From contig NC_089393.1 of assembly GCF_003171515.1 (NCBI RefSeq), positions 2,480,001 to 2,544,000 of the forward strand: DNA of 64,000 nt, given 5' to 3'. Shown one piece after another: positions 23,021 to 58,506 of this stretch. This stretch comes from Pyrenophora tritici-repentis. Its lineage: Eukaryota; Ascomycota; Dothideomycetes; Pleosporales; Pleosporaceae. Below the pieces are notes generated by a model. It did not search any database. It saw nothing but the letters and a program-made list of their open reading frames with translations, and was not told where the DNA came from. A program made the position numbers and the translations under genes. Positions within the stretch are counted from its first letter, which is position 1; each line of letters opens with the position of its first letter.

Positions 23021-25177
23021 ATGCCTACAAGCATTACTACCCGGCAATGGTACCCAAAGGTGTACGCGGACGAGTACACCAATACCCAACTCGACATTGC
23101 AACCGATGCTATTATCCCTGGTCAGATAAGCACTATTGCTATCGACTGGATGATACAGGCCGAAGAGAACGGAGACTTTGACATCATGCTTATTCAAGAC
23201 TTCCAAGAGACATTTGCAGGATGGTCTCTCAATCATTTCAATGCAATGGACATGCGAGTCCGTACAGCAGTCAAGAACATACTCCGCGACCGAGGTGTCT
23301 ACATCGAGAAGAACAGCCGCAACACCATCGCACAACAGCTAGTCAATCTCCTTAGCCTTACACGCTCTCCCGACTGGCCCATTGACGAGCTCAACGTTAT
23401 GCGACTCAACCCAGACTTCAAATGCCGACAGATAGCAGAAGAGGCACAACACGCTAGAACAACTCAACAAAGCAGCAACCCGCCAACTCAAAGCGCCAGT
23501 ATAAACTATGCGCCATCTCCTGCTCAGGCAAACGTAACAGCCCTCACCAACCTCGCAAAGGTATACAGTGAGGAGGAGAAGTTCAGTGGCGACAAGTATG
23601 ACGTCCTCGACAACAAGATAGTCATCTTTAAAGACCATTGCGAAAAGGTTGGCATTACGACACCAGCACAGTACAAACTTGCAGTCTCTACTATGCTTAG
23701 AGGCAAGGCCTCAGCATACTACTACAACTACATTGCTCCACTCAACCTAGACTACGACAGCATTATCAAGAAACTAGGGGAGTACTTTCACACGAGCGAG
23801 AACTACCAAATGTTCTTAAGTGAGTGGCGCACCATTATGCTGAAAGACGTCATCGCCAACAACCCCGACAAGACACTCACCCAGTGTCTCGACATAGTCA
23901 TCGACAAGCTCCAGCTGCTGCACCAGGCAATGACTCAACAGAATGGACCAAGCGAGCTCGCTCTTACAAGCCAACTTATTGCTGCCTGTCAAGGCGTCGA
24001 AGCATGTAGCGCAGTCCTTATCCGCCCAGCTTCAACCTTTGAAGCCGTTGCCTCAGAACTCCGCAACGCTGTCGGCAACTGGACGCGCTGCCATCCGCGC
24101 TCACAGTTCAACTGCGAGGAGTCCGATCCGAGCGAAGACGCGTTCTACACAAACCGCCGATACAACCGCAACGATAGCGGACAACGCGACAAACCGCGCA
24201 ACTATAGCGCACAAGGCCAAGGCGAAGGATCCCGCAACTACAACCGCGGAGGATCCCGCTTCCAACGCAGCTTACCCCGATCGCAGTACAACGATGATAC
24301 ACAGCGCCGCAATAACAGGAAGTGCTACGTCTGTAGCAAGCCAGGCTGCTGGTCAACTCGTCACTCTAGAGAAGAGCGAAAGGAAGCGCAACAACGTTTC
24401 CGGACGTACGTGCAGACCCGCAACGTCGATATAGACTACGAAGCTTTCCTTGCCCAGTTTGAGGGCATTGACCTTAATGACGACGACGATAACGGCGGCA
24501 CGGACGAAGAACTCGACGCGTTCTTCAACAACGACCAGTTTGATACAAAGCACCAGTTTCTCACTGCTACCTGCGGTGCAGTTGATGGAGGAACAATGGT
24601 ACGCAACCTCAACAACGCCGCCGCTCTACACGCGATCACGAAGATCGACCCATACGCCGGCAACGACATTGCCAAAGAGGCAAGCCACCTCTTCACACTC
24701 GATCACCGGTACGGGCGCGAGCAGTTCCAAGGCATCATGCCAGACACCGGCGCGGCCGGAGTGTCTACAGCAGGCAAGCAACAGGTTACAGCGTTACACC
24801 GCATCCAACCGTTATGGATTGACAAGTCAACTGCTGGCCGACACCGGATCCGATTTGGGGATAACCCGGAGTGTGTTTCTATCGGCGACGTCAACGTCCA
24901 GACACCCGTTGGAGTGATTAGGTTCGCTGTAATGCCTACTAACACACCGTTCTTACTCTGTCTTGATGACATGGACCGCCATGGCATCTACTTCAACAAC
25001 GTCGACAATACGCTAGTTCATCAGTCCAAGGAGTACCCAATTGTCCGCAAGTGGGGCATCCATGGCTTCTTCTCAACAAGCAGGAGACTGCCACCCACTA
25101 TCTCACCGAAGGAGAACTCCAGCAACTCCACCGACGTTTTGGGCATCCAGCCGCCGCACGCCTCTACAAAGTCCTAG
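23021..25177 (+). CDS. Element 1 Gag and aspartic protease
   Basis: 718 aa from the first good ATG after the leader. The Gag part has the DKYDVLDNKIVIFKDHCEKVG and YFHTSENYQMFLSEWRTIM regions typical of fungal Copia. A zinc-knuckle-like motif, KCYVCSKPGCWSTRHS at about residue 433, has Cys-x2-Cys-x4-Cys-x4-His order rather than the standard CCHC. The protease active site is PDTGAAG at about residue 572. The last ~40 residues overlap the next frame, so Pol is probably made by -1 frameshifting; after WG the Gag frame drifts into unrelated sequence. Confidence 0.93.
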   Translation: MPTSITTRQWYPKVYADEYTNTQLDIATDAIIPGQISTIAIDWMIQAEENGDFDIMLIQDFQETFAGWSLNHFNAMDMRVRTAVKNILRDRGVYIEKNSRNTIAQQLVNLLSLTRSPDWPIDELNVMRLNPDFKCRQIAEEAQHARTTQQSSNPPTQSASINYAPSPAQANVTALTNLAKVYSEEEKFSGDKYDVLDNKIVIFKDHCEKVGITTPAQYKLAVSTMLRGKASAYYYNYIAPLNLDYDSIIKKLGEYFHTSENYQMFLSEWRTIMLKDVIANNPDKTLTQCLDIVIDKLQLLHQAMTQQNGPSELALTSQLIAACQGVEACSAVLIRPASTFEAVASELRNAVGNWTRCHPRSQFNCEESDPSEDAFYTNRRYNRNDSGQRDKPRNYSAQGQGEGSRNYNRGGSRFQRSLPRSQYNDDTQRRNNRKCYVCSKPGCWSTRHSREERKEAQQRFRTYVQTRNVDIDYEAFLAQFEGIDLNDDDDNGGTDEELDAFFNNDQFDTKHQFLTATCGAVDGGTMVRNLNNAAALHAITKIDPYAGNDIAKEASHLFTLDHRYGREQFQGIMPDTGAAGVSTAGKQQVTALHRIQPLWIDKSTAGRHRIRFGDNPECVSIGDVNVQTPVGVIRFAVMPTNTPFLLCLDDMDRHGIYFNNVDNTLVHQSKEYPIVRKWGIHGFFSTSRRLPPTISPKENSSNSTDVLGIQPPHASTKS

Positions 25178-28029
25178 TAAAGGCAGGCCACGACGACATT
25201 GACAAGACGCTAATTGATGAGATTAACAAGTTCTGTCATCAGTGCCAGATAACTGCTAAAGCACCAGGCCGATTCCGCTTTACTCTACGCGATGACAACC
25301 TCGACTTCAACTCCCGCGTCATCGTCGACATTATGTACATTGACAGTAAACCAGTCCTCCACGCCGTTGACGAAGCAACTGCTTTTCAAGCCGCCCGCTT
25401 TCTTATAGACATAAAAGCAAGCACAACATGGGACACGCTGCGCGCTATGTGGATTGACATGTACGTTGGACCGCCCGACACTATCGCGACCGACGCTGGC
25501 ACAAACTTTGCGAGCAAAGAGTTTGTTGATAATGCCAACGCGATGATGATAGAAGTCCACGAAGTACCAGTTGAGGCCCATCACTCGATTGGCAAAATTG
25601 AACGCTACCATGCTGCCATCCGACGAGCGTTCGAAGTCATCTCCGCCGACATCGGTGCATCTACGACGACGAAGGATGACATCCTCCAGATGGCTGTCAA
25701 GGCTGTCAACGACACCGCCGGACCTGAAGGACTTATACCAACGCTGCTGGTATTCGGCACCTATCCACGTCTCTCCAAGACATCACCGCCATCTCCCTCA
25801 ATCACCGCGCGCGCAACGGCAATACGCAAAGCGATGGCAGAAGTCCGGAAGATTAAGGCAAAGCGACAAGTCAATGAAGCTTTAGGTACCCGTAACGGGC
25901 CAAACAACATCGTCACGCAAGTACTAGAACTACCGCTGCAGAGCAACGTCAAGGTGTGGCGTGAAGGCCTCGGATGGACTGGCCCGCACACTCTCCTCGC
26001 CCTGAACGACGATCAGACTGCTGCTATCGTCGACGCTCATGGGAAACAAGCAAGTTTCCGCATCACCTCTGTCCAGCCGTATCATCAAGACGACACTACA
26101 AATCTCCCGCGACCTGACGAGGAACAGCACGGCGATGAGGAACAGCACAGCGAGCATCAGCGCGACAATGACGACTTTATTCCCCCAGAAGAGCCACCGC
26201 AACGCCGAGGACGCGGCCGTCCCAAAGGCTCCAAGAACAAGCCGAAGACACACGCTGCTAACCTCGCACAGCGCGAGAAAGACGACATAGTGCTAGCCAG
26301 GACACTGCGCACTACCGGTAAGATCACGACACCTGGAGAACCTTTTGAGCTGTCAACCAAGACAGAGATTGACGCTCTCATTACCCGCGGCGTCTTCCGC
26401 TTTGAGCCATTCAATCTAGCCAAGCATGGCGGGATCCGGATCTTCAAGTCCCGCATTGTCAATGAAGTGAAAGGCAAGACCACCGATAAGCCGTACGAGA
26501 AATCTAGACTAGTTGTACAAGGCTACGCCGATGATGGCAAGAAGATTGTACTCACCCAGAGCCCCACGATACAACGCGCAAGCCAGAGGATCATTATTGC
26601 TCTTGCACCGGTATTGATCCAAATGGGCATGAAGTTATGGCTCCGAGACATCACGCAGGCGTACACGCAGTCCGACGACCGCCTCCAGCGCACTATCATT
26701 GCAGACCTGCCTGTACAACTCCGCAAAGTGTACCCACAAGGAACCATCATGGTCGTGGTGAAACCACTGTATGGCATCGCCGAAGCAGGTGCCTACTGGT
26801 GGTCAACATACTTCAAACACCACACGACGACACTCAACATGGAGACGTCTACGTACGACCCATGCCTCCTCATCTCCAAGGCCACCGACGCTGGAACAAC
26901 CACAGGTTTCGGCATTGTTGGCATGCAAACCGACGACACTCTTGGTCTCTCAGACAACGCATTCGCTGATAGAGAGGACAAGGAGCTCCGTTTCAAAGCT
27001 AAGGACAAAAAGTACCTCACAGACACTGACCCTATCGAGTTTAATGGCTGTATGGTACATCTTGGCAGTGGCAACGTCATTACTTTACGGCAGAAGAAGC
27101 AAGGTGAGAAACTTGAGAACGCTGTTGATGCAAAGTCCTACATACAACAACGAGCACGAGGAGCATATATCGCGACTATCTGTCAACCAGAGGCAAGCTT
27201 TGATCTCGCCGCTGCAGCGCAAGCGACTGAACCGACAAAAGAAGAAATATCCAGATTGAATAAGCGCATTAACTGGCAGAAGAAAAACGTCTCTCGCGGA
27301 CTTAGCTACGTGCCTATTGAGATGAAAGATCTCAAGCTATACACGATGGTGGACGCCTCGTTTGCCAACAACAAGGACATGAGCTCTCAAATGGGATACG
27401 TTATTATTCTTGGTAACGAGACTGCATCTTCAGACGGCAGCTTTAAGATACGTGGCAACATTATTCACTGGTCCTCCACTAAATGCAAACGCGTCACAAG
27501 GAGCGTTCTAGCATCGGAGATCTATGCAATGGCACATGGCGTTGACATTGCACTGGCCATCGGCACCACGATTGACATGATTATGGACCGACTGTCTTTC
27601 CCTAAGGTCTCTATTGTCGCATGCACGGATTCACGATCCTTGTACGACTGTCTCGTCAAACTCGGCACTACTAAGGAGAAACGTCTCATGATAGACATCA
27701 TGGCATTGCGCGAGGCATACGAGCGCAACGATCTCATGGATATCCGCTGGATTGACGGCAGAGACAACCCAGCAGATGCGATGACAAAGGCAGCGAGCAA
27801 CTCTGCTTTAGAGCATCTCATTGACACCAACGAGCTCGAACTTCGTGTACAGGGATGGGTGAATCGCGACACCACAGGCATCGAGCCTACGAACAAGCCA
27901 GGCACCAAGCCTACGAACAAGACAGGCACCGAGCCTACAGACAAGACAGGCACCGAGCCTACAAACAAGACAGGCACCGAGCCTACGAGCGATGGCACCG
28001 AGCCCACGATTGATTGTGGTGAGAACTGA
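25051..28029 (+). CDS. Element 1 integrase, reverse transcriptase, RNase H
   Basis: Open frame with no independent start needed; coordinates begin where it overlaps Gag. The pre-integrase zinc region is LHRRFGHP...CHQCQ. Integrase catalytic residues are D (VIVDIMYID, ~95), D (IATDAGTNF, ~147) and E (GKIERYHAA, ~183). RT spans about 430-690 with WLRDITQAYTQSD and the active site MQTDDTLG (TDD instead of YVDD). RNase H shows VDASFANN, SEIYAMAHG, CTDSRSLYD and RWIDGRDNPADAMTK. The tail consists of GTEPTNKT repeats. Intact throughout. Confidence 0.95.
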   Translation: MGHPWLLLNKQETATHYLTEGELQQLHRRFGHPAAARLYKVLVKAGHDDIDKTLIDEINKFCHQCQITAKAPGRFRFTLRDDNLDFNSRVIVDIMYIDSKPVLHAVDEATAFQAARFLIDIKASTTWDTLRAMWIDMYVGPPDTIATDAGTNFASKEFVDNANAMMIEVHEVPVEAHHSIGKIERYHAAIRRAFEVISADIGASTTTKDDILQMAVKAVNDTAGPEGLIPTLLVFGTYPRLSKTSPPSPSITARATAIRKAMAEVRKIKAKRQVNEALGTRNGPNNIVTQVLELPLQSNVKVWREGLGWTGPHTLLALNDDQTAAIVDAHGKQASFRITSVQPYHQDDTTNLPRPDEEQHGDEEQHSEHQRDNDDFIPPEEPPQRRGRGRPKGSKNKPKTHAANLAQREKDDIVLARTLRTTGKITTPGEPFELSTKTEIDALITRGVFRFEPFNLAKHGGIRIFKSRIVNEVKGKTTDKPYEKSRLVVQGYADDGKKIVLTQSPTIQRASQRIIIALAPVLIQMGMKLWLRDITQAYTQSDDRLQRTIIADLPVQLRKVYPQGTIMVVVKPLYGIAEAGAYWWSTYFKHHTTTLNMETSTYDPCLLISKATDAGTTTGFGIVGMQTDDTLGLSDNAFADREDKELRFKAKDKKYLTDTDPIEFNGCMVHLGSGNVITLRQKKQGEKLENAVDAKSYIQQRARGAYIATICQPEASFDLAAAAQATEPTKEEISRLNKRINWQKKNVSRGLSYVPIEMKDLKLYTMVDASFANNKDMSSQMGYVIILGNETASSDGSFKIRGNIIHWSSTKCKRVTRSVLASEIYAMAHGVDIALAIGTTIDMIMDRLSFPKVSIVACTDSRSLYDCLVKLGTTKEKRLMIDIMALREAYERNDLMDIRWIDGRDNPADAMTKAASNSALEHLIDTNELELRVQGWVNRDTTGIEPTNKPGTKPTNKTGTEPTDKTGTEPTNKTGTEPTSDGTEPTIDCGEN
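27877..28008 (+). repeat. 24-bp coding repeats at the end of element 1 Pol
   Basis: About five and a half copies of a 24-bp unit encoding (GTEPTNKT)n at the C-terminus of Pol, in frame. Confidence 0.9.
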
Positions 28030-47093: not shown

Positions 47094-48854
47094 CTACTCC
47101 CTACCTCCCGGTACCCTCCGTCCTAGATAAACATCGAAAGCCCACCCATCCGCCTCCCCATACCACGGTGCAGACCTAAAGTCCCACCTATCCAGCCCCC
47201 TTGGGAAGCTATGCTGATGCAACATCTTCACCCTATTCGCCATTGTATGTAAATGCACACCGTGTTCCCTCGCCACAGCCACCGCGCGTGTGAACCAGGG
47301 TGTATCTCTATCCTCAGGTGAGATTTCAGGGGGCGTATAATCTTCGTCGTAAACCGGCCAACCTTTACGTTCAACGTCTGCTAGGCAGATAGCTTCTAGC
47401 GGCCGTTTTGGCTCGCCTTCTTCGAGATATCGTCCTGTGACTAAGCCAATCACTGCGTTCTCGAAGCCGACTTTTGCGTTGGGTTCCCAGTGAATATGCC
47501 TATCTGCTAGGCCATCCCAGAGAACCAGTACCTCGAGTGTTTTCGGGAGACGCAGGGCGAAGAAACGCTCAAGCCATGCGCCGTCTGTCTCGTCTTCCTT
47601 TTTGCCAGTTTCGGCTTCATAGAAAGCATCGAGCTCGGTGTCTTGAGTGTTCATGCAGACCTGTTTCAGGGTTGTGAACTTCTCCAATTCTGCTGGGCGG
47701 AAGGCGTGGCAGCGGTAGCCGCGGATGTGTTCGCTATTATCGTGATTGGAGCCAAAGCCGTAGAACATGAGACTTTCCAGTGTGTGATTTTGGTAGTATT
47801 CGAGTGGAGTGATAATCATATCTGCGTCTTCGAGGAGAGCAGATCCGGCGCGGAAAGCGCATGATATAAGGGCTGATGGGGCAGCGAATAGGGCGTTGCA
47901 GAAAGTTTGGCTGAGTGCGGAACAATTGTCCAGGAAGAGATGTTTGAGGCTAGAGCTCTTGGCGGGAATGATGGTTCCCCAGGGCCTTTGGTCGTATTCT
48001 TGTGATACTAGGTCTCTGAAGTATATCTTCTCTATGCTGGGTAATTTGAAGAGATGGGCAAGGATTACGGTGTTGTAGGTTTGTGTGGTGGGATCGTAGA
48101 CACTGTCCATCCAGGTTTCAGAGATGACTCCGACGGCGATGTTTCGAAGGTTTTGTAGACCGGGGGGCCAAGAGGTTCCTTGGTTTTGGACATGATCAAT
48201 CAGAAATCCCAGATATCTGATACAGCAAAACCCCATCATCTCGTAACGCGCTGGCATAACAAGCTTGACGTCCTGCAGTCGCGGGCAATTCGCAATCAGG
48301 TTAGCTTTCAAGTGAGCATCTCCACCGGCCTCAATATTAGAACGCGCTTCAAAGACGCGAGCGAGCGAAGGGCCAGCCCAGCCTTGTCCTAGTCGTTCCA
48401 AATAGTCATCTGTTTCACCTGGGATATATCCCCAGGATATTGGCGACGTATTCGTGTCTTGGTCGATGGGAATATCGAACTTTAGTGACTTCCATTCCCA
48501 CCAGTGTTTGCGATCATACCAGATCTCCAGTGATCGGACATGCCATGCGAGGATGGGATCACCATAGCCCAATGCGCTTCGAACGAGGGTGGGTACGGTG
48601 ATGGGATCGATGTCAGACGAGACGCTGTATCTGTCGTGCGCGACATGATGGCGTTCAAGTATGTCTGAGGAATCTGCGAAGATCTTTTTGCAGGTGCAGG
48701 CAAAGTCCAAATGTGATGCTGGAGGAATGCGTTCGATTATTTCTTGTATAAGTTCGGTTGCAAAACGGGTGAGAAAACAGGGGCCGTGATGATGCGGTGT
48801 GTGAAGCCCCTCCAAGCGGGGAATTGCCGGAGTGTCATCAGAAACACCGCTCAT
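47094..48854 (-). CDS. F-box domain protein
   Basis: 586 aa, single exon, start at 48854. An F-box-like segment lies near residues 28-65 (FLTRFATELIQEIIERIPPASHLDFACTCKKIF), followed by an irregular leucine-rich region (LIANCPRLQDVKLVMPAR, LPSIEKIYFRDL, SSLKHLFLDNCSAL, KTLEVLVLWDGL). This is the usual layout of fungal F-box/LRR-like proteins that recruit substrates to SCF ubiquitin ligases. Substrate unknown. No transmembrane segment. Located between two gene-poor spans, with its own promoter to the right. Confidence 0.85.
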   Translation of the reverse strand: MSGVSDDTPAIPRLEGLHTPHHHGPCFLTRFATELIQEIIERIPPASHLDFACTCKKIFADSSDILERHHVAHDRYSVSSDIDPITVPTLVRSALGYGDPILAWHVRSLEIWYDRKHWWEWKSLKFDIPIDQDTNTSPISWGYIPGETDDYLERLGQGWAGPSLARVFEARSNIEAGGDAHLKANLIANCPRLQDVKLVMPARYEMMGFCCIRYLGFLIDHVQNQGTSWPPGLQNLRNIAVGVISETWMDSVYDPTTQTYNTVILAHLFKLPSIEKIYFRDLVSQEYDQRPWGTIIPAKSSSLKHLFLDNCSALSQTFCNALFAAPSALISCAFRAGSALLEDADMIITPLEYYQNHTLESLMFYGFGSNHDNSEHIRGYRCHAFRPAELEKFTTLKQVCMNTQDTELDAFYEAETGKKEDETDGAWLERFFALRLPKTLEVLVLWDGLADRHIHWEPNAKVGFENAVIGLVTGRYLEEGEPKRPLEAICLADVERKGWPVYDEDYTPPEISPEDRDTPWFTRAVAVAREHGVHLHTMANRVKMLHQHSFPRGLDRWDFRSAPWYGEADGWAFDVYLGRRVPGGRE

Positions 48855-53152: not shown

Positions 53153-56100
53153 GGCAAGCTGAGACTACAGTATGTCTTGATGTTTCCTCGACGAACTCAT
53201 GCAACTCGGCCAGAAGGGCGAAGAAGACGGGCTATGAAACGACAAATGTTCGAAGAGAAGAAAGGAGCGTGATATGGAAAGGTGATAGAAGGTCCGGGAT
53301 GATTAGAAGAGGGCGTCCTGTGTAACTACATGAACATGGCGTTGAGCCGCAGTGCCACCGCTCATGCATGGCACACGGCTCCTCGCCGGAATAGATACGG
53401 TGATCTTGGAGCATCACCTGCACTGTGCGGGTCCAACCCAGCTGTCATTGCGAGCATGTAAGGTACGCGAGCGGGGAAGGCTATGCCGTGATACTACATT
53501 TGGATTCGTCATTTAGCTGCAGGGCTGCTAGTCTCTTCTGATACCGCCTGGGCACTCTAGTGATGATGTTTTTTTGCTTGATCAGGGTTGGTTCATGGCC
53601 TTCGCTTTCTTGATCTTAGCGATAAAGTGCTTTTTTTCAGGGTGTGGTTATCTTCCCCACCAGCACTGTCAAGATACTACTGATCTACTCCTTGGAAAGC
53701 AATTCTCCAGTACAAATTATGACCGATAGATATGCCGGCAGTCGGCTCCCGTGAGCTAGCTGATACAGCTGTCATGGTACTGTCGCGTGGAGAAGGCCTC
53801 AACTCATTCGGGTGCACGTGTCTTTCTCCATATGTACAACGTCAATAACAACTTCACAAGCTGGTGGCTTATGTCTTCGAGCAAGGGTAACGCTGGACTG
53901 CATATTGGAGAAGGTTATGGAAAAAAGGATTGGTAGTTGCAAAGACTGTTGCGCAGGGGCGTAATCCTCTTCTCCTGGGTAGTGCATATAAAGACCGGAT
54001 TTTGGTCGAGAGGGGCTGAGTACACTATTGTTTTTCCCTTGATATTCCGATTAGCGAACAGACATTGCGGATCAACGCCACTGCGATTTTCGATAGGCAG
54101 GGAATCCGTAGAACGGTGACCTATGGGATGAAATACGAGGTCGCCCGCTCACGCATCAAGTTAAATCGTGCCTATCTGGTGCGTACTCGCAAGTGCTGAT
54201 GCCTGCATATTAGCGGGATGAAACGCGCTTCTCAAAAAGCAAGACAGTGTTGAGTGGTGGTTATGGAGCTAAGGAGGAGGGAGGCTTGGACGACGGTCGC
54301 GGGGAGGTTCCAGCGACGTGCCGGTCTTGGCACGCTAATCTGGCTCAACAGCACCCTCCCATAAGCACAGTACCACTTCTGCTACAAACCATCGCGAAGC
54401 TAACTTTATCATCCCGTGTCCGACACCTCCAGACCAACCCTCGGTACCCTTTCATAAACATCATCGTCAAGCACCGATCTGTGCCTGGGGCCGAACGCTC
54501 CCGTGATCGACGATTCCGACTGCCCCGTATGCGCCGCGTCTCTGTTCAGTTCTCGGTCATCGCCGTCGAAGAGACCGCCTCGAGATGACTATGGCGGAAT
54601 TCGTGTGACTGTGGAGAAACACCATAGTCACACAGACTATTATGGGAAATTACGAGCAATGGGTACAGCCGGGCCATGCTTCAACGAATCTACGGTATTT
54701 CAGAGAATCAAAAAAGTATCTTATACACGGCGGTCTGGACTGTGGCTAGGCGACAATTGCAAATCTTCTTCCAATCGTGCTTGTCGTTACTCCTTCCTCT
54801 GAAAGGTCTATCAACCGCGCTTTTCGACCCAGATGGCGACTACTGCAATTACTACCGATTCCGTGAGCCGCCCTGCGTCGGGCCAGTACATGATTACACC
54901 AAGACTATGCCTTGGTGCATCTTTTTCGGCTTCTCGGCTTCTTCCGCCACGTTGCCGGGCGCGACACATGCAATTCCAGTCTCCGTTCGTCCCCGGTAAC
55001 CGTCGCCATGATGACCGGAACATGTCGCTGGTTGAATAAGACTTAGCATGCAAGCCTGCTAGCTTTGAGACTAGACTCGGGATGTGCAGCCTTCATCTGT
55101 CGAAACCGATTACAGTCCGGAGCGTTAACAGCCGTTGGCGAGGACAGGTTGCAAGTTAACCCGAAAGGTCTATCAGACCTACTGTATCACTCCATTTGCG
55201 ACTGATTCCATTAAGAGTAGGGCTATTCAGATACAAACAAACCCGCGAGCTCAATTAGTGGGTAGCCACGTGTCTTCAAACTGGTCATAGCAAAATAGCA
55301 GATCGCCCGGCTGTTTTCAACGATTGGAGTTCGGCAAAAACTCCCGTGCAACTACTTGTTCTAGCCGTTACTAAGGAAATTGTCCCAACAGTATACATCG
55401 GATTCTGAGATCAACATACCATGGCCATTGATTTGGTAGACAACCTCTACCGGATGCCCACTGATTGCGAAATTCCAAGGTAACTGAAGCTTCATCTAGA
55501 GACGTACCTTGGGCCATGAAATCTCCTAAAGTGAACAAGGGGAACCGATTTTAGTCCAACTCAACAACAGTATAGGAAAATGGCTGGCTGGTAGCGGTCA
55601 GAGCTACTAGAGGCTCGAGATGGGAGCCGAGCTCTGGTTTGGGTGTTGAAAAACTAACTTCCATGGCATTCTTGCATGCTCTTCTAATTTCGCATACCCT
55701 GCCATACATGGGCTTCTCAAACCGCATTGTATATTGCTACTTCCGCATATAAGACACCGTGCGAGTGAGATGGTTTTTCAAGACCGGCAGGACCCAGCCT
55801 CTCCATCTCCATCAGTGCAGTAAGACTATATTTATAGTTTGACAGGAGTGTTTTACTTGGTACACAGGGTGTAGCAGCCGCGCGTGCAGTGATGATCCCA
55901 AACCTTCGCCTGGCCTGAGTTCGCTATGGTTCACTTAGCGTTCAATCATGATTCAGGAATAACCCTATGGTCACCTCGAAATATGGCGTCGCAACAGTCC
56001 TATTCATTTTCCCCGTCGCGGCTTAGTTTTCCAGTAGACGCGATATCTGGAAGCGCTTGGTTCTGCCTGCATGCTTGTAGCATTAGGTACGTAACGGGAA

Positions 56101-57063
56101 TGGTGTACTGATCATCGCAGACAAGTGTACCCGCAGACCTTGGGGGCTATGCTGGCGGCATTATCATGTTAGCAGGAAAAGCAACTGTGAGATCGGATCC
56201 ACTGGTTTCCGTGATGGGGAGTTCCGCATTGCATTCAAGCGGATTTGCTTCCCCGCGTCATATAAGACCCACGAAAAAGAGTTCAAGCTTTTTATGTAAG
56301 CTTCTGACGCTCACGAACTCCCTTTAGAGATCAACCAATCGACTGATCTAAATATCCAACTTTTGTCAAGCTTTCCGGTGTTCTGTTGAGTTGATGCCAC
56401 TGACATCCATCTCACAGCATGACAACTCTGTCATCACCAGTCGTTCCACTGCTATTGAGCGGACTATTGCAGGGTGTGGTTTACTAAATTGAGAAAGGAC
56501 GACTCTGTCCTCATCAATGCGACCAGATCTGCTCAAATCAGCAGCCCTTACTTGAATGGTAATACATTCATTGTTGACTGTACTAGCCGAAGGTTGGTAG
56601 GTGTACTACCGCCACCTCTGCACAATAACCGTCAAAACTCCGATTAACTACCATGAAGAAGTCCAGTGTGTCTCTAAATCGCAATTGTTGCCACGATCCG
56701 TGAGTAAGCGAATTTGTGAAACTGTTATATCGCGCATTGAGATATCCAGATTCTTAGCACTCTGCAACAACCCATGACTGAACGGCAGGATGCATCCACC
56801 TACAAGTAGAACTCAATTAATCCTCCCATTCCGCAAGTAAAAGCGTCACGATGCCATGCCCCCACTCTGAGATTATCGGTTCAACCAAATGCAATGCTTA
56901 AGCCCCACCATCAAACCCCCTCACTAGCAAAAAATCTGTCCGACATGACCCCACCCCACCAACCCATCTCTCACCCCTCCAAAGCCAGCACCGCCTTCCA
57001 ATTCATTTCAACTTATCTACATATACCTATCATTTCCAATTTCTTTCATCATTACTAAGCAAC
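53153..57063. other. Gene-poor region
   Basis: About 3.9 kb with no gene I can support. One imperfect 12-bp inverted repeat is noted at 54603-54633. Open frames (for example 54247-54588) lack protein-like composition. The final 60 bases before 57064 are T/C/A-rich with TATA-like steps and may act as the leader of the tRNA genes. Confidence 0.5.
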
Positions 57064-57200
57064 GGCCTAATGGCCCAATGGCAAGGCGCTTGACTACGAT
57101 CACATCGAAATCAAGAGATTCCAGGTTGTAAGTTCAACCCTTCAATGCCTTGCATTCGAATCCCGACTAACACTCTTCCCAGCGACCCCTGGTTAGGTCA
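57064..57200 (+). tRNA. tRNA-Arg(ACG) with two introns
   Basis: Acceptor GGCCTAA (57064-57070) pairs with TTAGGTC (57193-57199), one G-T wobble; discriminator A at 57200. D arm GCC/GGC. Anticodon stem CTTGA (57089-57093) pairs with TCAAG (57111-57115); anticodon ACG at 57096-57098, with about 10 nt of extra loop (57100-57109), a normal nuclear tRNA intron. T stem CCAGG (57121-57125) pairs with CCTGG (57188-57192), but the T-loop TTCGACC is split after TT by a 55-nt insert, 57128-57182, with GTAAGT, CTAAC (57167-57171) and CAG. Removing both inserts gives a 72-nt canonical tRNA. The A box TGGCCCAATGG is intact; the B box is split. Could be an inactive copy, but all stems are intact. Confidence 0.85.
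57128..57182 (+). other. Spliceosomal-type intron in the T-loop of tRNA-Arg
   Basis: 55 nt, GTAAGT donor, GACTAAC branch site 11 nt before a CAG acceptor after a pyrimidine-rich stretch (actcttccc). It interrupts the T-loop between T55 and C56. The first bases also recreate a B-box-like GTTCAACCC. Confidence 0.8.
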
Positions 57201-57212
57201 GCAATATTTTCA

Positions 57213-57345
57213 GCATCGGTGGTTTAGTGGTAAAATTAGCCGTTGCCATTCCAGTTTCGGCTAGCCCCGGGTTCGGTAAGTTCAGAGCATTCTGAGAGAC
57301 AGTGAGCAGTTGAACTAACAGTTGAAAAGATTCCCGGCCGATGCA
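57213..57345 (+). tRNA. tRNA-Gly(GCC) with two introns
   Basis: Acceptor GCATCGG (57213-57219) pairs perfectly with CCGATGC (57338-57344); discriminator A. D arm GTTT/AAAT with A box TGGTTTAGTGG. Anticodon stem AGCCG (57238-57242) pairs with CGGCT (57258-57262); anticodon GCC at 57245-57247, with an 8-nt intron at about 57249-57256. T stem CCGGG (57267-57271) pairs with CCCGG (57333-57337); the T-loop TTCGATT is split after TTCG by a 54-nt insert, 57276-57329, with GTAAGT, ACTAAC and AG. Without inserts the RNA matches the conserved eukaryotic tRNA-Gly(GCC). Followed by a T9 Pol III terminator. It lies 12 bp after tRNA-Arg, same strand. Confidence 0.87.
57276..57329 (+). other. Spliceosomal-type intron in the T-loop of tRNA-Gly
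   Basis: 54 nt, GTAAGT donor, AACTAAC branch site (CTAAC 57315-57319) 10 nt before the AG. It interrupts the loop between G57 and A58, a different position from the tRNA-Arg insert. Both inserts begin GTAAGTTCA and share CTAACA. Confidence 0.8.
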
Positions 57346-57358
57346 ACTTGCAACATTC

Positions 57359-57367
57359 TTTTTTTTT
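57359..57367 (+). terminator. RNA polymerase III T-run terminator
   Basis: Nine consecutive T 13 bp after the tRNA-Gly end. A weaker TTTT at 57207-57210 lies between the two tRNAs. Confidence 0.8.
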
Positions 57368-58054
57368 GCGAGAGGGGAGGGAGAAGGGGAAAGAAGATAG
57401 GATAGACGCTTTTTTTGTAGCAAGGTAGGTAGGTGATATAGTATGTCTTATTGCTGTAGCTTTATGCTATGCGTATAATAGGCTTTAAGGCCCTTCTTTG
57501 TGACTATAAGTCTAAGTTGTACATTGTAGGCTGTGAAGGTATATACGCATGCTTGAATGACAGGTATCCCTGCCCCTCTCTCATCCTCACTTGATAATCA
57601 TTGTGGCCGCTTGGGTGATGTTGCTGTTGTCATGAAGTGCTACTCACCGGTGAATGTCGATTTCTCATCCTCATGTGCTTGCGCATTCACCGACGATAGC
57701 TTAACAACGGAAGGAAGCAAAAGAATAAGTTGGCGGACCCAAATCCTGTGATCCTACACCACACTACTTCTTTCACGCAATACACAGCCATCGCCAAAAA
57801 AACTCCTTTTGTAAGTCCTCTCCATCAGCAGAAGACCGCCATGAGAGCTCTGGATAGCTCTCGTGTTCTTTCCACGGGCGTAGCATACGGCAGCCACTAC
57901 CTCGTCACAGAAAATGGTGTCTTGGATGCATCTTCATTACCATGGCTCCTGGCTCCTACAACCAAAGCTATTTCCATCGCAACAGCAATGTCAGCCTCTA
58001 TAACTCAAGCAGACCAGACACCGGGTGACCACGTCACAACCGCGTTGAGAAAAA
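57368..58054. other. Intergenic or 5' leader
   Basis: Upstream of the small hypothetical gene. An open frame from 57841 continues into that gene's second exon and could be an alternative N-terminus. Nothing else seen. Confidence 0.45.
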
Positions 58055-58506
58055 ATGGACCCAAAGAAGCCAATTCCTGCGCGCAAGCCTTTGACGGCCA
58101 AGGAGACTCACGAAGTGAGAGCAATCATTTTCGACGTCATAGTTCGAACTCATCATGGCAGACACTGCAAAACTTGGGCTTCACCAACCCCCTGCGCACC
58201 GTCAACAACAGTACAAGAGATGAGGGCGAGCTCATTTCAGACATGACACCGACAGACGCCAATGTCGGCAAGCCCACTTCGATCAGGGAAAGCATTGCTA
58301 CGGCCATGAGCTCCATGCACCTGCCCGGGCCCAAGCCCAAGCGCTCGGCGTCCAACGAGCTTCTGAAGATTGACGACCTTGAGAACTACCAGCAAGCATG
58401 TACCGAGTACAAGCAGGCACTGAAAGAGGGTTGGAGCAAGGAGCGACTGTTGGCGCTGGTTGATGCCTGGCAGAAGATTGACGGGGGAGGAGGCCGCAAA
58501 GGATAG
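58055..58506 (+). CDS. Hypothetical small protein
   Basis: 134 aa in the preferred model: ATG at 58055 (A at -3, G at +4), exon 1 58055-58114 (MDPKKPIPARKPLTAKETHE), a 47-nt intron with GTGAGA and GCAG, exon 2 58162-58506. The C-terminal part SNELLKIDDLENYQQACTEYKQALKEGWSKERLLALVDAWQKID looks like a conserved helical domain. No family recognised. An alternative unspliced frame from the ATG at 57841 gives 221 aa with the same C-terminus; its N-terminal half is less protein-like. Transcript data would decide. Confidence 0.55.

Follow-up and report, generated by a model that had tools for sequence, protein, structure and literature searches.

The window, by which we mean the whole 64,000-nucleotide stretch analysed here, carries on its forward strand two tandem tRNA genes, each of which is interrupted twice. 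The first, tRNA-Arg(ACG), extends from acceptor to discriminator at 57064..57200 (+) and its sequence folds into a cloverleaf after removal of a T-loop insert, and the second, tRNA-Gly(GCC) at 57213..57345 (+), is read from the sequence and by ARAGORN after the same operation. Each gene has an anticodon-loop intron at the canonical position 37/38, of 10 nt in tRNA-Arg (57100..57109, +) and of 8 nt in tRNA-Gly (57249..57256, +, as placed by ARAGORN), in agreement with the lengths of about 10 and 8 nt claimed in a first-pass annotation of this DNA. The tRNA-Arg gene is further split at 55/56 by 55 nt (57128..57182, +) of the form GTAAGT...CTAAC...CAG, with the branch-point motif CTAAC at 57167..57171 (+) and a B-box-like TTCGAATCC at 57155..57163 (+). 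The tRNA-Gly gene is split at 57/58 by 54 nt (57276..57329, +) of the form GTAAGT...CTAAC...AAG, with CTAAC at 57315..57319 (+) and without TTCGA. The branch-point A lies 12 nt from the end of the intron in tRNA-Arg and 11 nt in tRNA-Gly. The first-pass annotation had proposed for both genes this combination of a 37/38 intron with a T-loop insert at 57128-57182 and 57276-57329, and had attributed mRNA-intron hallmarks to the T-loop inserts; the arrangement and both sets of coordinates hold, and GTAAGT, CTAAC and AG can be read in each. The genes are separated by a 12-nt spacer containing only a T4 run (spacer 57201..57212, +; T4 at 57207-57210), and the pair is followed by a T9 tract of the Pol III terminator type (57359..57367, +).

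ARAGORN found no tRNA in the whole window, nor in the 3.4 kb surrounding the Arg-Gly pair when anticodon-loop introns were allowed, and Rfam gave no match on 56000-58500 with E up to 1. Once the two T-loop inserts had been excised ARAGORN detected both tRNAs, as expected from the earlier claim that tRNA structure is restored by removing the inserts. ARAGORN labels the spliced window Arg gene Ser(CGA) because it puts the anticodon intron elsewhere in the loop; ACG is therefore our own reading of the loop, with a 10-nt intron after position 37. The length and sequence of this 37/38 intron differ across the four copies of tRNA-Arg(ACG) described below.

Interrupted tRNA genes were sought throughout one genome, that of Pyrenophora tritici-repentis (40.9 Mb, 41 contigs), by DNA similarity, by tRNA family search and with patterns describing an interrupted T loop, an intact T arm, or a B box with a T run. 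The window protein at 47094-48854 shows 100% identity to one of P. tritici-repentis, and the placement in the Pleosporales implied by the first-pass annotation is correct. The mRNA-type T-loop introns first described for two genes proved to have a wider distribution, with at least 29 mRNA-type inserts, at ten classes of site, in at least 27 nuclear tRNA genes representing 15 anticodon types. T-loop introns occur at 55/56 in four Arg(ACG) genes and at 57/58 in three Gly(GCC) genes and one gene each for Arg(TCG) and Asp(GTC), and a further Asp(GTC) gene has an intron at 30/31. Two Glu(CTC) genes have introns at both 8/9 and 57/58, and one at 8/9 alone. Introns lie at 13/14 in one gene each for Glu(TTC), Ser(TGA) and Ser(AGA), at 11/12 in one Gln(CTG) gene, at 10/11 in two Ala(CGC) genes and in the D loop of one Pro(CGG) and three Tyr(GTA) genes. 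Lys(CTT) and Leu(TAA) have one gene each with an intron at 52/53, and two Ala(AGC) genes have one at 53/54.

The selectivity of the patterns varied. A branch-free pattern, GGTTCGGTN{30,60}AGATTCC, which asks for GT and AG and for no branch point, gave six matches in 40.9 Mb, all six with GTAAG and CTAAC (reversed control, 3). An interrupted-T-loop pattern containing TAAC gave eight matches, seven of them tRNA genes (reversed control, 18), and a second, loose pattern of this kind gave 13, four of them tRNA genes (reversed control, 8). The intact-T-arm pattern gave 12 matches (reversed control, 0), and two patterns combining a B box with a T run gave 119 and 152 (controls, 9 and 13). The tRNAs drawn from the 119- and 152-match patterns are selected sites among the matches listed, and as such the resulting counts are minima; these two patterns match only certain T arms and T runs, which leaves the census incomplete and skewed to T-loop introns. 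The genome DNA search misses short exons, two already known Glu copies having escaped it, and copy counts are therefore based on exact patterns, by which a gene differing inside the pattern would go unseen. Insert-free nuclear tRNA genes among those read number 49, so that by our own count 27 of 76 are interrupted, a figure from a biased sample, in which several patterns required T-loop inserts and sites were taken among the matches listed, and which omits the odd candidates L098, L131, L136, L142 and L145 and the repeat families.

All 29 introns have the form GTNNGY...AG, with 5' splice sites GTAAGT (12), GTACGT (6), GTAAGC (4) and four rarer forms (7 in all), and their lengths fall within 50-63 nt with a median of 55 nt. 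The extraction itself required GT and AG between exon anchors that we placed by eye, guided by tRNA structure and by paralogues; these guides locate the junctions only to a few bases, and at 20 of the 29 the boundary could be shifted by 1-3 bases because letters are repeated there. The branch motif was no part of the extraction criteria. It reads CTAAC in 26 introns and CTAAT in three, with its A at 9-17 nt from the 3' end in all 29, compared with a mean of 1.1 and a maximum of 6 among shuffled introns. Three introns had been selected on the branch motif, namely the two of the window, which were given, and that of Arg(TCG), found with the TAAC pattern only. The other 26 could be reached without it, through similarity, the branch-free, T-arm or B-box-terminator patterns, the search by tRNA family, or by being the second intron of a gene already fetched, and therefore selection on the motif does not account for its presence in all. 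A chance occurrence of GT..AG was rejected, given the branch motif in 6/6 matches to the branch-free pattern and the maximum of 6/29 in shuffles. Among the four Arg(ACG) introns, pairwise identity from 5' splice site to branch point is only 40-66%, and the invariant blocks in their alignment are GTAAGT, TTCGA, CTAAC and the final AG. The sole mRNA intron compared from the same genome, in MAK16 (located by tblastn, the intron being identified by eye), reads GTAAGT...CTGAC...CAG and at about 180 nt is longer than the 50-63 nt introns of the tRNA genes. By their sequence the inserts belong, as introns, to a known family, the spliceosomal introns.

Introns at unusual tRNA positions are also known from archaea, Cyanidioschyzon merolae and nucleomorphs, where D-, anticodon- and T-arm introns, up to three per gene, are described in the available portions of the sources (PMC3978253, PMC4090602, PMC9602550), and where, as far as two of these go, ectopic introns are of bulge-helix-bulge (BHB) type or of unknown mechanism (PMC4090602, PMC3978253). 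The introns described here resemble these in occupying the D, anticodon and T arms and in occurring several to a gene, and the ectopic introns of C. merolae are likewise said, in the text available, often to interrupt the A and B boxes. It could accordingly be proposed that the inserts are non-canonical introns cut by tRNA endonuclease at BHB motifs. We consider this very unlikely. In the one register tested, 0/29 introns can pair with the 3' exon to form the 4-bp central helix of a BHB motif with its 3-nt bulges (one has three of the four pairs and the others two or fewer), and BHB introns do not require GT, CTAAC and AG, yet GT, AG and CTAAC or CTAAT are present in 29/29. The TTCGA found in 10 of the 11 introns that cut the B box is a further difference from the ectopic BHB introns. 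Yeast tRNA endonuclease is moreover described, in the accessible part of a review, as cleaving strictly at 37/38 (PMC4033280). Anticodon-loop introns of that canonical eukaryotic kind are present as well, and ARAGORN puts one in 20/27 genes after splicing, both window tRNAs included; unlike the introns described here, they are short, confined to one site, cut by tRNA endonuclease and have no need for GT, CTAAC or AG.

Removal of the inserts restores recognisable tRNAs across the whole set. ARAGORN reports a tRNA in 27/27 spliced genes, with the anticodon assigned here in 22, while for the unspliced genes it reports nothing in 17/27 and the correct anticodon in three of the other ten. The five spliced genes that it names otherwise are three Arg(ACG), Arg(TCG) and Gln, and as read here these names reflect where the anticodon intron is put, or whether it is seen. 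For Glu(CTC), Gly(GCC), Lys(CTT), Gln(CTG) and Ser(AGA) there are intronless paralogues that match the spliced genes letter for letter in both the 5' and the 3' half. The uninterrupted copies of Asp, Ala(AGC), Arg(TCG) and Glu(TTC) diverge in mature sequence, so that there a test of paralogue identity is not possible. Glu(CTC) exists in three states, with no such intron (C2:4387111), with the 8/9 intron alone (C2:1453882) and with both introns (C2:2642359 and C5:347641).

Insertions in the D or T arm of eukaryotic tRNA genes are described, in the excerpted text of one review, as affecting, for the most part, a single member of a large set of synonymous copies and as taken for pseudogenes (PMC4090602). 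On such an account the genes reported here would be tRNA copies struck by insertions, with the real tRNA coming from uninterrupted copies. Uninterrupted copies are indeed present for 9 of the 15 types, namely Gly, Lys, Glu(CTC), Glu(TTC), Gln, Ser(AGA), Asp, Ala(AGC) and Arg(TCG), and the interrupted genes of those types could therefore be dispensable. Three copies of Gly(GCC) have an intact T loop, and the Gly gene of the window would thus not by itself prove need. The first-pass annotation had asked whether uninterrupted Arg(ACG) or Gly(GCC) genes exist elsewhere; they do for Gly(GCC), and for Arg(ACG) the outcome favours its split-gene reading, since an interruption is present in each of the four Arg(ACG) genes found and none of the 12 sites matched by the pattern able to detect an intact Arg(ACG) T arm is such a gene. 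For Tyr(GTA), a 17-base exon piece has exactly three matches in the genome, a count that a gene differing within the 17 bases would escape, and each of these genes carries the intron in its D loop. Only interrupted genes were seen, among those read, for Ala(CGC) (two), Ser(TGA), Pro(CGG) and Leu(TAA) (one each). That Tyr(GTA) and Arg(ACG) are interrupted in 3/3 and 4/4 genes found is strong evidence against pseudogenes, which would also not be expected to have exons that equal those of paralogues without introns, as they do in the five families compared, nor, as products of random insertion, to share splice signals. The probability that the interrupted genes are pseudogenes is in our estimation minimal.

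The positions of the introns bear on transcription. The internal promoter of Pol III comprises an A box at tRNA positions 8-19 and a B box at 52-62, according to the available part of one source (PMC3978253). With their final AG, the introns at 52/53 and 53/54 leave AGGTTCGA or AGTTCGA in place, while the 11 introns at 55/56 and 57/58 split the B box. TTCGA occurs inside 10 of these 11, including all four of Arg(ACG), and is absent from the other introns (0/18; Fisher p=5e-7), and shuffling leads to an expectation of 0.39 in 11 on average with a maximum of 4. This distribution suggests that the intronic TTCGA may act as a substitute Pol III promoter element in introns that split the B box. As a B box it is weak, being preceded by G in only 3/10. 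It lies exactly 14 nt before CTAA in 6/6 of the TTCGA-bearing 57/58 introns and 12 or 14 nt before it in Arg(ACG); such fixed spacing is no promoter requirement, and common descent may contribute. For the A box we considered whether the AG of the 3' splice site had been selected to rebuild it in the nine introns at 8/9 to 13/14, and dropped this idea, as the match across the splice site (7 of 8 positions in seven introns, 5 and 4 in the other two) is mostly no better than in shuffles and mostly expected from geometry.

The only B-box-splitting intron without TTCGA is that of the window Gly gene. A terminator of T5 or longer follows 26 of the 27 genes with such introns and all 25 intronless genes, frequencies that are partly a selection effect because the patterns combining B box and T run required a T run, and the window Arg gene is the only one of the 27 without T5 or longer within 45 nt downstream. 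The 12-nt spacer with only T4 suggests that Arg and Gly share one two-tRNA transcript, and from the presence of TTCGA in the Arg intron and its absence from the Gly intron we infer that this transcript would start from the Arg promoter.

These features also bear on whether genuine spliceosomal introns might here reside in Pol II-made or tRNA-like non-coding RNAs outside the working tRNA supply, a proposal to which we give almost no credence: Pol II transcripts are the usual substrates of the spliceosome and many of the interrupted genes have their A or B box split, but T-run terminators and upstream CATCAA match those of intronless tRNA genes, TTCGA is confined to B-box-splitting introns, the 17-base exon piece reveals no further Tyr(GTA) gene, and fission yeast U6, which is made by Pol III, is spliced according to the accessible text of the report (PMC10484740).

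Several features of the surrounding sequence were recorded in passing. The CATCAA motif lies within 70 nt upstream of 16/27 intron-bearing and 16/25 intronless tRNA genes (for example L072 and L073), and TTTTTTGC trailers are frequent at tRNA genes. No T5 run occurs within any of the 29 introns, an observation to which we give no weight in the argument.

We conclude with high confidence, on the strength of the sequence, that the inserts are U2-type spliceosomal introns within functional nuclear tRNA genes transcribed by Pol III. The sequence shows the introns themselves, their signals, the tRNA that remains after removal, the intronless paralogues, the ordinary terminators and the families for which no uninterrupted copy was found. 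In the pathway that we propose, Pol III would transcribe the whole interrupted gene, with the introns that cut the B box at 55/56 or 57/58 supplying a substitute TTCGA for TFIIIC, and in the window the Arg and Gly tRNAs would be made together from the Arg promoter. The spliceosome would then excise the 50-63 nt intron, presumably in the nucleus, and only after this would the D or T arm be able to fold, be modified and pass the export check. The 37/38 intron would be taken out by tRNA endonuclease and ligase, most plausibly thereafter. The splicing of a Pol III transcript is not without parallel, as a Pol III-made U6 with an mRNA-type intron is spliced in fission yeast (PMC10484740, in the portion available). 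In C. merolae, Pus4 is reported, again in the text accessible, to form no pseudouridine 55 in pre-tRNAs that carry an intron in the T arm (PMC9602550), which fits splicing ahead of modification. The suggestion in the first-pass annotation that such precursors may need both the spliceosome and tRNA endonuclease fits everything computed here, with the same type of intron in at least 27 genes; the coupling between the supply of tRNA and mRNA splicing that it envisaged would be a consequence.

To our knowledge GTA is the sole Tyr anticodon, and A34 of tRNA-Arg(ACG) becomes inosine, which decodes CGU and CGC. Every Tyr tRNA gene found is interrupted, and the making of the tRNAs whose genes are split in this way probably needs the splicing machines of both mRNA and tRNA. 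We think it likely, with somewhat less assurance than we attach to the nature of the introns, that translation depends outright on the spliceosome via tRNA, with all tRNA-Tyr and all tRNA-Arg(ACG) passing through two splicing machines and splicing thereby setting the decoding of UAU/UAC and CGU/CGC, and that the introns of the T loop also serve as Pol III promoters, carrying the B box they destroyed. We know of no precedent for such a class of tRNA intron. If the introns are spliced, the tRNA supply of an ordinary filamentous fungus hinges on the spliceosome, and essential genes escape tRNA-gene finders, as the blank result of ARAGORN on the window illustrates. Paralogues with and without the intron would then also form a natural system for studying intron gain, the splicing of Pol III transcripts and the takeover of a promoter by an intron.

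The nearest relatives of this arrangement are found in other small RNAs. The U6 snRNA of fission yeast resembles it in having a spliceosomal intron in a small RNA made by Pol III; in contrast to the hosts described here, which are at least 27 tRNA genes of 15 types, U6 is a component of the spliceosome itself, and its intron lies near catalytic nucleotides and is thought to stem from reverse splicing (PMC10484740, in the part of that paper available). The U6 gene of P. tritici-repentis (L147, G000:C2:1204080-1204390) matches positions 1-105 of the 105 of the Rfam U6 model and has no intron; a B-box-like AGTTCGAATC lies downstream of its T run. Fungal U3 snoRNA, another small non-coding RNA, is likewise encoded by genes with ordinary spliceosomal introns, which some paralogues have and others lack (PMC5832005, in its accessible text), whereas the hosts here are tRNA genes with internal promoters, most of which have a second intron of the endonuclease type in the precursor. 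The accessible portions of two reviews treat nuclear tRNA introns as substrates of tRNA endonuclease and contain no word starting with 'spliceosom' (PMC4090602, PMC4033280), and no report of spliceosomal introns in nuclear tRNA genes was found among the matches listed in a search of open-access titles and the opening parts of abstracts, subscription papers and preprints being outside its scope. The statement of the first-pass annotation that it knew of no described case in fungi accordingly stands within those bounds. The T-loop, Arg and Tyr patterns had no matches in prokaryote genomes and viral contigs.

A number of tRNA-like sequences outside the set of interrupted genes were also encountered. 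At L098, L136, L142 and L145, tRNA-like genes into whose anticodon arm ARAGORN puts 62-75 nt, no GT-CTAAC-AG signals were seen in those inserts; L145 passes the Rfam cut-off for tRNA, and L098, L136 and L142 gave no match. An 84-nt sequence like tRNA-Arg(TCT) has 19 matches of equal score (46.1 bits), L119 and L120 included, and two copies that were fetched have identical bodies and near downstream flanks and differ in their upstream flanks; it resembles a mobile tRNA-derived element. A dispersed repeat with a B-box-like element and ending in GGTTCGATTCCCAACA was found at L088, L090, L094, L100, L102, L105, L111 and L113, and although Rfam gave no match on L113, it is perhaps a tRNA-derived SINE. 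Within the window itself, positions 25051-28029 proved in a protein search to be no multi-intron gene, the match being to a Copia-type retrotransposon polyprotein of P. tritici-repentis with 98% identity over 85% of the query.
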